The notes beneath the pieces were generated by a model. That model was given only the letters and a program-made list of their open reading frames with translations, was not told the origin of the DNA and ran no database searches. This document shows positions 8,297 to 41,867 of a stretch of DNA of 64,000 nt, one piece after another. The DNA lies in assembly GCA_002841625.1 (NCBI GenBank), contig PHAG01000003.1, positions 1 to 64,000 on the forward strand, written 5' to 3'. A program made the position numbers and the translations under genes. Each line of letters opens with the position of its first letter. Position 1 is the first letter of the stretch. The stretch is from Firmicutes bacterium HGW-Firmicutes-1 (GTDB lineage: Bacteria > Bacillota > Clostridia > Lachnospirales > Vallitaleaceae).

Positions 8297-8436
8297 TATC
8301 TTTATTAAATGTAATTTCTTTATTCTGGTTCACCTATGATAATGTCCTAGCGTACCCCATTTAATTATGTCCATTTCAAATCAATGGTTTATAATATATC
8401 CTCATGAATATTAACATCGAGGTTATAACCACTCAT

Positions 8437-8597
8437 TTAACGAAATAGAGATAAAAGCATTTTTTCTTCTAGATGAATACGAAAGGCAGTAAGTGTTCAT
8501 TTTTCGCCCGACCGGCCAAAGGGTAAGGCCAGAAAAATGAACACTTACTGCCAATAATCTATACACCTATCAGAAAAAATGCTTTTGTCGACTGTCT
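8437..8597. repeat. 161-bp double-palindrome element, copy 1
   Basis: The element consists of nested inverted repeats. The outer arms are 15 bp (AAAAGCATTTTTTCT at 8453-8467 with its complement at 8572-8586). The inner arms are 21 bp and perfect (8485-8505 with 8532-8552). The inner loop is GC-rich and contains GGCC. A second 161-bp copy lies at 29627-29787 with only scattered mismatches, several of them outside the stems. Both begin TTAACGAAA and end GTCT. It encodes nothing. It looks like a small non-autonomous mobile element (MITE/REP-like) or a structured RNA. It fills much of the 554-bp gap between cysH and the sulfur operon. Confidence 0.85.
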
Positions 8598-8676
8598 TAT
8601 CACCAACTATAACTAGTGCTTATGTTTTAGATTTATTAGAACATTTCCAAAACTGCTTGACACACCATTTCCGTGC

Positions 8677-24517: not shown

Positions 24518-24846
24518 AAAAAAAGCCTCCACCCTATAAACCATAGGGCGAAGGTCTTAGCTTCCGCGGTACCACCTAAATTTGCTAAATAATTTAGCAC
24601 ACTCATATAATACAGGATTTCTCCGATATTATTGCTTGAATAACGGTAAGCTTCCGTTGAAGCCTACTCTCTTGTAAGTAACAAGTACTTATCTATCGAC
24701 ATAAAATATTATTTCCAGTCGATCAAGATTTCGGTTCACAGCTCCAAGGCTACCTTCCTTTACATCGTCATGGAGAATTCTCACCAACATCTCCTCTCTT
24801 TGTTTCAATATGCAAAGTACTCTTCCTTTTCATTGCTTTTATCTTA
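24518..24846 (-). ncRNA. T-box riboswitch, valine-type specifier, upstream of ilvB
   Basis: Minus-strand leader sensing uncharged tRNA. Stem I pairs CTTTGCAT with ATGTAAAG. The specifier loop that follows reads GAAG-GTA-G, which aligned with the glyQS leader places codon GTA (Val) at 24751-24753. The antiterminator bulge is TAGGTGGTACCGCG (rc of 24564-24577), whose TGGT pairs with an ACCA tRNA end. The terminator CCTTCGCCCTAT/ATAGGGTGGAGG (24526-24554) is followed by seven U residues (24518-24524). The T-box identity is sure. The Val assignment is my manual fold. Confidence 0.93.
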
Positions 24847-29437: not shown

Positions 29438-29626
29438 TTTATCATCCTCTTCATATTTATTAGTAATTCAAATCATATCGTTTTATTATTGGCATATTCT
29501 CGAGATTTATTACATGAAATTTCCAATATTAAGCTTTTATAATATCTTATATGGTTCAAAACCTCATTACAAAAAGGCCATCAAACCAAATAGCCTTATG
29601 CTCTTGAGAATTTAATAAATAGTCTA

Positions 29627-29787
29627 TTAACGAAACAGAGATAAAAGCATTTTTTCTTCTAAATGAATAGCAAAGGCAGTAAGTGTTCATTTTTCGCCCG
29701 ATCGGCCAAAGGGTAAGGCCAGAAAAATGAACACTTACTGCCAATAATCAATACACCCACCAGAAAAAATGCTTTTGTCGACAGTCT
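29627..29787. repeat. 161-bp double-palindrome element, copy 2
   Basis: Same length and ends as copy 1 (8437-8597), with the inner 21-bp arms and outer 15-bp arms identical between copies. It lies between the hydC start and the small Cys-rich gene. The flanking sequence differs completely from copy 1, which defines the element borders. The remainder of the 29438-29945 gap shows nothing else recognisable. Confidence 0.85.
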
Positions 29788-29945
29788 GATGGTATCTCAC
29801 CTGATAACCTCTTTATAAATCAATTATATTTTTATTACCTGAAATACTCTTATTCCAAATCCTTCACCTCCCTATGCAGATTTTAAATGATGGTTTAATT
29901 TCTTTTTATTTGGATAAAATAAAATCTATTAGGAGGTACAATCAT

Positions 29946-35523: not shown

Positions 35524-35723
35524 GGGACAGGCACTTCTACCTTATGCGCTTATGATGGTGCTTAGGGGACAGGCACCTTTGTCTCAATGAGTTATAATTT
35601 CTTATGCTTACAATATAGAACTTACGGGACAGTACGGACTAAGAGAACAAATACGTTATCTACTCGAGAAAAGACTTACGGGACAGGCACTTCTACCTCA
35701 ACGAGTTAAAAGTGCCTGTCCCC
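35524..35723. repeat. Cluster of GGGACAGGCAC repeat motifs (REP-like)
   Basis: Motif copies at 35524-35534, 35565-35576 and 35680-35690 in direct orientation, plus a decayed GGGACAGTAC at 35636. The inverted partner GTGCCTGTCCCC lies at 35712-35723, so the last two can form a hairpin. It fills the gap between the TPM gene stop and the binding-protein start. Similar palindromes are spread through many Firmicute genomes and resemble REP sequences mobilised by Y1 (RAYT) transposases; none is encoded in this window. Confidence 0.8.
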
Positions 35724-35746
35724 TTGTCCTTTCCCCTTGTCCTTAT

Positions 35747-37168: not shown

Positions 37169-37247
37169 TGGCGCAAAGGGGACAGGCACTTTTAACTCAC
37201 AAAGTACAAAACAAAACAAGACAAAAGTGCCTGTCCCCTTTGCGCCA
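37169..37247. repeat. Perfect 25-bp palindromic GGGGACAGGCAC element
   Basis: The left arm 37169-37193 (TGGCGCAAAGGGGACAGGCA then CTTTT) is exactly complementary to 37223-37247, around an A-rich 29-nt loop. It is the same motif family as the cluster at 35524-35723. It sits directly against the csp terminator, so the terminator U-run lies in its right end. Confidence 0.88.
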
Positions 37248-41740: not shown

Positions 41741-41848
41741 GACCGCCTGGGAAAAAGATGTGTAGACGATCTTTTGCCCAGGCGGTCGGCATTTAAAAAT
41801 CTGTACTCCCTGTGGGTACTCCCACTTTCCGCCAGTCATACAGATGAT
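41741..41848 (-). ncRNA. ZTP/ZMP (pfl) riboswitch with terminator, upstream of pflB
   Basis: On the minus strand the aptamer has P1 CTGTA/TACAG, then ACTGGCGGAAAGTGGGAG, P2 GTGGG/CCCAC and CAGGGAGT. The hallmark 3' segment CCGCCTGGGCA follows (rc of 41775-41785). That segment is also the 5' arm of a perfect 11-bp terminator stem (41777-41787 with 41741-41751) followed by UUUU. Ligand binding should protect it and allow pflB expression. This is the expected ON switch for ZMP/ZTP, the signal of folate one-carbon shortage. Confidence 0.94.
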
Positions 41849-41867
41849 ATTTATTTGTTATGCTATA

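Follow-up and report, generated by a model that had tools for sequence, protein, structure and literature searches.

We found that the nested-palindrome element carried twice by the window (the whole 64,000-nucleotide stretch of DNA analysed here) is probably, at odds we put near 0.8, a non-autonomous IS1182-type MITE with terminators as its insertion sites, each insertion leaving a stem-loop on either side. Its ends resemble those of IS1182 elements, its flanks repeat each other in about half of the copies, it lies in a preferred orientation to genes, and it has spread from copy to copy. The hairpin nested inside the element is the newest and least explained part of the finding.

The original prediction described a 161-bp non-coding stretch present twice in the window with unlike flanks and perfect arms, and most of this description was borne out. 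The two stretches listed in the table share 94% identity, with nine differences. Both the 21-bp inner and the 15-bp outer arms are intact in the two copies and none of the nine differences falls inside them, in agreement with the claim that differences sit mainly in unpaired parts. Neither copy is overlapped by an ORF of at least 120 aa, the size range considered. Folding of the element strand was far below that of 200 shuffles (z of -12.2 as RNA and -10.7 as DNA). Copy 1 lies within a 345-bp composite repeat, which recurs in the sister genome at G001:C60:494-836 with 79% identity. Two points needed correction: the element is not limited to two copies, and the left border first proposed (8437 and 29627) falls within it, the true left end being about 30 bp farther out where it is clear.

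Table. Coordinates of the element and its parts in the window.
Feature	Position	Strand	Basis
161-bp stretch of the original prediction, copy 1	8437..8597	+	sequence comparison
161-bp stretch of the original prediction, copy 2	29627..29787	+	sequence comparison
MITE copy 1, left limit approximate, left end replaced (CGAGGTTATAACC for CAGGTTGTTGAC)	8418..8598	+	alignment of copies
MITE copy 2, 192 bp, full extent by homology, diverged left end	29597..29788	+	alignment of copies
Right terminal repeat, copy 1, TTTTGTCGACTGTCTT	8583..8598	+	alignment
Right terminal repeat, copy 2, TTTTGTCGACAGTCTG	29773..29788	+	alignment
Outer stem left arm, copy 1	8453..8467	+	sequence, fold
Outer stem right arm, copy 1	8572..8586	+	sequence, fold
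Outer stem left arm, copy 2	29643..29657	+	sequence
Outer stem right arm, copy 2	29762..29776	+	sequence
Nested hairpin, copy 1	8485..8552	+	arms 8485-8505/8532-8552
Nested hairpin, copy 2	29675..29742	+	arms 29675-29695/29722-29742
345-bp composite repeat enclosing MITE copy 1	8319..8663	+	second instance in sister genome

A whole-genome search for further copies had been set beforehand as a test, and many were found, so the case of no further copies did not apply. In the source genome (3.95 Mb, 33 contigs), the 161-bp query matched 41 places at 90-100% identity, a lower bound that came from scoring 40 of 89 first-look candidates; one of the 41 matches query positions 1-138 only. A pattern search added three near-full copies (C1:25.6 kb, C11:75.1 kb and C13:18.0 kb) and four half copies, one of them at a contig end, for a total of at least 44 full or near-full MITE copies plus fragments. 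Sister genome G001 holds four MITE copies, and the 161-bp sequence had no match among plasmid and phage records (E 0.001). An origin in one large segmental duplication was ruled out by the unlike flanks and by the spread of copies over many contigs.

Borders were drawn from an alignment of 52 copies with their flanks, 48 from the source genome and four from G001. Right ends lie close to GTCGACAGTCTG in nearly all aligned copies, and many copies continue to the left of the start first proposed, reaching CAGGTTGTTGACAATTTAATTAATTAT. A clear left end, CAGGTTGTTGAC, was present in 20 of the 44 source-genome copies when up to five mismatches in 27 positions were allowed; where it is clear, the element measures 188-194 bp and its termini are CAGGTTGTYGACAA…TTGTCGACAGTCTG. 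The common left end is visible by eye in further copies (L028, L050b, L053, L057, L058, L069 and L071). Two variants of the left end were also distinguished, one in copies lying within a larger repeat (L001, which is window copy 1, L003, L017, L056 and L068) and one near GCGGAGGTTTTGTAAC (L015, L022, L059 and L070), and the left end of window copy 2 is a diverged form of the common type.

To characterize the target sites, we scored direct repeats between the flanks of 44 source-genome copies, omitting L060, L067, L068 and L072, in which one end is missing. The mean score was 9.84 for flanks of the same copy versus 6.62 for mismatched pairs, a difference reached by 0 of 10,000 permutations; for the 20 copies whose left end is clear, the means were 11.90 versus 6.53. 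Scores exceeded the 95% level of mismatched pairs in 19 of the 44 copies and the 99% level in 12; about half of the copies have no flank repeat, and the repeat is weak in both window copies (scores 7 and 10). In L014, for example, AGATGTTGGATAAACCCAACATCT on the left is matched by AGATGTTGAATAAACCCAACATCT on the right, and a stem-loop-like repeat is found on both sides of L005, L052, L066, L026, L002 and L008. In this 20-copy subset with clear left ends, the left 28 nt fold more strongly than DNA farther out (-6.2 versus -1.5 kcal/mol, p = 0.004), and folding of the right 28 nt shows no clear excess over DNA farther out (p = 0.16). Furthermore, a hairpin terminates the left flank in 20 of 44 copies versus 26 of 130 control positions (p = 0.0015), and the run of at least four A expected of an outer T-tract precedes this hairpin in 6 of the 20. 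Insertion at stem-loops or palindromes, a behaviour reported for some IS1182-family members, is thus clear in roughly half of the copies. The clear cases keep a stem-loop or repeat on both sides, and the deletion of the target stem-loop without duplication that characterizes IS1272-type insertion was not found among them.

In 38 of 45 copies, the MITE is oriented with its right end toward a gene's 3′ end. Within tandem gene pairs, it points toward the 3′ end in 21 cases versus 3 (p = 0.0003), with genes taken in these counts as ORFs of at least 80 aa rather than from annotation. Comparison with the sister genome covered three sites, namely that of window copy 1 (alone of the two window copies), one on C6, and a third at which the alignment to G001 is not clean. 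At the copy-1 site, 86 bp separate the matching blocks in G001 versus 428 bp in the window; the whole 345-bp composite is absent there, hence this is no clean empty site. The corresponding distances at the C6 site are 85 bp and 604 bp, and G001 retains a TTTGTCGACAACCT remnant with a similar end, so that this site is not cleanly empty either. Two MITEs stand in tandem at C6:47.6-48.2 kb, with imperfect target repeats around both. The non-autonomous mobile element offered in the original prediction is supported by the two sites at which the sister genome is without the inserted DNA, and also by the many scattered copies, the mutually repeating flanks and the IS1182-like ends.

Several other repeats resemble the MITE in part. 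A second hairpin family (L077, L079, L080, and L138 at about 1560-1710) has terminal modules in common with it but differs in its interior, and further matches to the L138 stretch were seen at several places in G001. Around that stretch (L138 1090-1740), a pair of MITEs and a member of the second family are inserted in tandem, with imperfect target repeats between them. The element L073 (G000:C8:47399-47708), of about 310 bp and with the same ends, has an exact copy of a 20-bp terminator-like hairpin, AAGCGTTCTTTTGAACGCTT, on either side.

The link to IS1182 comes from the terminal motif. With at most one mismatch, CAGRYTGTYGACAA occurs 39 times forward and 31 times reverse in the source genome, versus 7 and 3 times for the reversed control; it marks other elements beyond the MITE copies, and some matches are plainly unrelated to the MITE (CAGGTTGTTGCCAA on C2 and C5). 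A partner transposase in the same genome is usual for such an element and optional, and none of the IS1182 type was matched in the source genome (NCBIfam NF033551, E 0.001), a draft of 33 contigs. NF033551 matches were found in 14 of 22 family genomes, with the curated cut-off passed in two. Among 30 family loci fetched, a broken IS1182-type gene, L091/L102 (G019), has the motif at both ends (at most two mismatches); its left end adjoins a hairpin that is not repeated in its right flank. The motif is present at one end of the remnant L094/L112 (G002), single stray matches with two mismatches occur in L106, L107 and L116, and 23 of the 30 loci have no such end motif.

A tblastn search of plasmids with a piece of L091 matched 481 records, all below 60% identity, and six IS1182 loci were taken from 15 matches listed among these records. 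After inspection of L091, we relaxed one position of the end pattern from Y to N, giving CAGRYTGTNGACAA; this position is A in four of the six plasmid loci and C or T in the MITE. This loosened pattern is present at both ends of four of the six loci with at most one mismatch, at one end of the fifth, and only at two mismatches in the sixth, against a chance expectation of 0-0.05 per locus (Markov samples). Under the loosened pattern, the ends of the MITE are therefore like those of IS1182 elements in four of six plasmid loci and in one family gene. Flanks were compared on both sides for L124, L125, L126 and L129 (the other plasmid loci being L127 and L128). Exact copies of a 22-30 bp terminator-like stem-loop flank each of L124, L125 and L129, and the two flanking hairpins of L126 differ. 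As expected of an IS1182-type MITE, the element itself is short, dispersed in many copies and free of a transposase gene among ORFs of at least 120 aa.

In the mechanism that we infer, an IS1182-subgroup transposase acting in trans would recognise CAGRYTGTNGACAA-like ends, and the element would insert at an intrinsic terminator in such a way that the insertion itself repeats the stem-loop, leaving it on both sides. Since only 6 of 20 flank hairpins adjoin a run of at least four A, we suggest more tentatively that the outer stem-loop might keep termination working and that insertion might then do little harm. The MITE probably captured the inner palindrome, which is independent in relatives, and then amplified it. 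If terminator-targeting relatives of IS1182 do leave a stem-loop on both sides, their insertions may be close to neutral, and this would help explain the 40-50 copies of such elements.

The inner 66-nt hairpin was found without the MITE in related genomes, one of them from another family. In Petrocella-group genomes (Petrocella being placed in Vallitaleaceae, Lachnospirales, by the NCBI taxonomy), Blast recovered the inner part on its own, and it also recovered the inner hairpin with other stems in the source genome (L061) and in G001 (L062, L063). A covariance model run over 146 genomes, the source genome included, matched 14, of which 12 were kept after the sequences were read. Ten of these have at least one hairpin with the apex GNN(N)GACCG…AAGGC, and G008 and G019 were kept on the stem and a looser apex; the matches in G005 and G022 (L156, L157), where the apex is absent, were taken as chance. 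Copy numbers from this search are rough, as 33 candidates per genome were scored and strands were counted apart. In viral contigs, four apex patterns gave two matches in all; both were rejected, their sequence reading without a hairpin and the covariance model giving no match. In G016 (L176, L177, L179-L183), one nearly uniform version of the stem closes a longer mosaic repeat, several hundred bp in size, on its right side.

The apex GNN(N)GACCG…AAGGC is common to many of the non-MITE hairpins, and their stems vary between copies and are still paired. In a Petrocella subset, by contrast, it is the stem that is retained, and the apex is not exactly the same. Among 43 hairpins read outside the source genome and G001, 31 have this apex and the remaining 12, from Petrocella-group genomes, are of the GCAGTAAG stem type, including L178, whose apex is very different and which was nevertheless kept in the counts. 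GACCG…AAGGC is also present in 41 of 45 source-genome MITE copies. The longest uninterrupted stem spans 16-24 bp in 24 family hairpins and 20-35 bp, mostly 30-31, in seven hairpins of G055, which belongs to another family. Over their distal 13 nt, the 5′ arms of different copies share only 44% identity in G055 (7 hairpins) and 48% in genus g3 (15 hairpins, one duplicate removed). The distal 5′ arm pairs with its own 3′ arm at 97.8% and 100%, respectively, versus 52% and 55% when the 3′ arm is taken from another copy, values that carry two biases favouring pairing, namely that the model rewards pairs and that arm offsets were chosen to maximise pairing. The 43 non-MITE hairpins lie mostly near gene 3′ ends (17 convergent, 10 + 10 tandem and 2 divergent), and four fall within ORFs called at 70 aa or more.

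Tentatively, and with clearly less than even confidence, we read the nested hairpin as an unnamed class of dispersed elements of the Lachnospirales, recognised in most of its forms by its apex and by having a nearly perfect stem, about 22 bp long (30-31 bp for the most part in one genome), and not by the sequence of that stem. Such hairpins would spread independently, would have been captured by the terminator-targeting MITE in the source genus, and would owe the matching of their arms either to template switching during replication or to a partner that recognises the folded strand. No description of such hairpins was found among the openly accessible papers searched.

Why the arms stay paired was addressed with 32 aligned hairpins, chosen from 49 and mostly MITE copies. 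Overall, 97.9% of cells are paired, and both sides have changed in 12 of 26 pairs (36 cells), a level reached by 0 of 500 shuffles, which ignore relatedness, with slid controls giving 2-7 pairs. This covariation could arise without function if polymerase template switching copied one arm onto the other, an explanation that concerns the inner hairpin only, is compatible with the MITE reading, and in our judgement falls just short of an even chance. In 42 source-genome copies, the inner stem, with arms 26 nt apart, shows 7 compensated and 10 one-sided changes (five of them G-U), and the outer stem, with arms over 80 nt apart, shows 0 and 6. This contrast between close and distant arms points to template switching, although it is not significant (Fisher p = 0.12). 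Some double changes are common to copies that are not nearest relatives of each other, which points the same way, and PMC8794818 reportedly describes template switching at hairpins; the shared apex is, however, left unexplained by it. These data are compatible both with selection for the folded structure and with the copying of one arm onto the other by template switching, and do not separate the two. The many stems found around one apex within single genomes offer a natural test of selection versus template switching in palindromes.

For the element as a whole, we consider it unlikely that a dispersed structured RNA or 3′-UTR hairpin is being kept because the transcribed hairpin acts at mRNA ends, through stability, termination or protein binding. 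The strong fold, the both-side changes of the inner hairpin and the preferred orientation at gene 3′ ends would suit such a role, but no compensated change was seen in the outer stem of these copies, the non-MITE hairpins show no preferred orientation in tandem pairs (10 versus 10), and RNA function alone leaves the IS1182-like ends and the flank repeats unexplained. Moreover, no Rfam family reached its cut-off at the element or at the hairpins; matches at the hairpins were all below threshold, mostly to eukaryotic microRNA models, and one to sRNA_1300 had 33.7 bits versus a cut-off of 48.8. The structured RNA that the original prediction held as an alternative may still apply to the inner hairpin, which occurs outside the MITE and covaries strongly, while the whole element is read as mobile.

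A REP/REPIN-type palindrome moved by a Y1 (RAYT) transposase on single-stranded hairpins is highly improbable: although the element is palindromic, intergenic and present in many copies, and Y1_Tnp genes do occur (one in the source genome, and between one and four in each of three relatives out of five searched), the palindrome was not associated with a Y1_Tnp (RAYT) gene (near seven Y1_Tnp loci, the best inner-arm match has 5 mismatches of 18), G012 and G019 have 26 and 15 hairpin-model matches (strands counted apart) and no Y1_Tnp match, and the apex is conserved in many of the hairpins, whereas the conserved part of REPs is the stem.

Other features were noted in the window. Another palindromic repeat, around AAAAGTGCCTGTCCCC, is present in several copies (35524-35724 and 37169-37247, the latter with perfect 25-bp arms) and is presumably REP-like, the genome having its one Y1_Tnp gene. 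A T-box leader (24541-24842, - strand) precedes an acetolactate synthase-like gene, and a ZMP/ZTP riboswitch (41769-41849, - strand) precedes a formate-lyase-like gene, both genes being named from their translations.

The IS1182-type MITE that we favour can be set beside several known systems. RUP, EFAR, bcr1 and YPAL are short intergenic palindromic repeats present in tens of copies; to our knowledge, none has ends of the IS1182 type or a comparable nested hairpin, and we set them apart by description. The double-hairpin elements of fungal mitochondria are mobile and keep their structure while the stem sequence varies. They are likened to the nested hairpin by description only, and differ from it in being mitochondrial and in consisting of two hairpins. 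No fitting report on terminator duplication by IS elements or on Petrocella was found among the openly accessible papers searched.

Closer relatives are found within the IS1182 family. According to the accessible parts of PMC4923244 and PMC5678879, the staphylococcal IS1272 and TnSha1 insert at hairpins, often terminators, without sequence specificity, and part or all of the hairpin is removed with no duplication; duplication of the whole stem-loop is one pathway of the model in PMC5678879. The MITE is like them in targeting hairpins but, together with three plasmid IS1182 elements, keeps a stem-loop on both sides. As summarized in the available portion of PMC12056078, IS1182 elements act with or without target duplication or deletion and may recognise sequence or DNA structure, so that a repeated structured target fits the family; unlike the present element, neither a MITE nor terminator duplication is described in that portion. 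MITEPye1 of Paracoccus yeei (PMC11578231) is likewise non-autonomous and intergenic, with a long stem-loop and IS1182-family-like ends. In the accessible text, it has 18-bp ends, 4-bp direct repeats and 1-3 chromosomal copies, and hairpin targeting is not described. Relative to the available parts of this literature on IS1272 and TnSha1, on IS1182 and on MITEPye1, the present element differs in the stem-loop kept on both sides, in its copy number, in its orientation to genes and in its nested hairpin.
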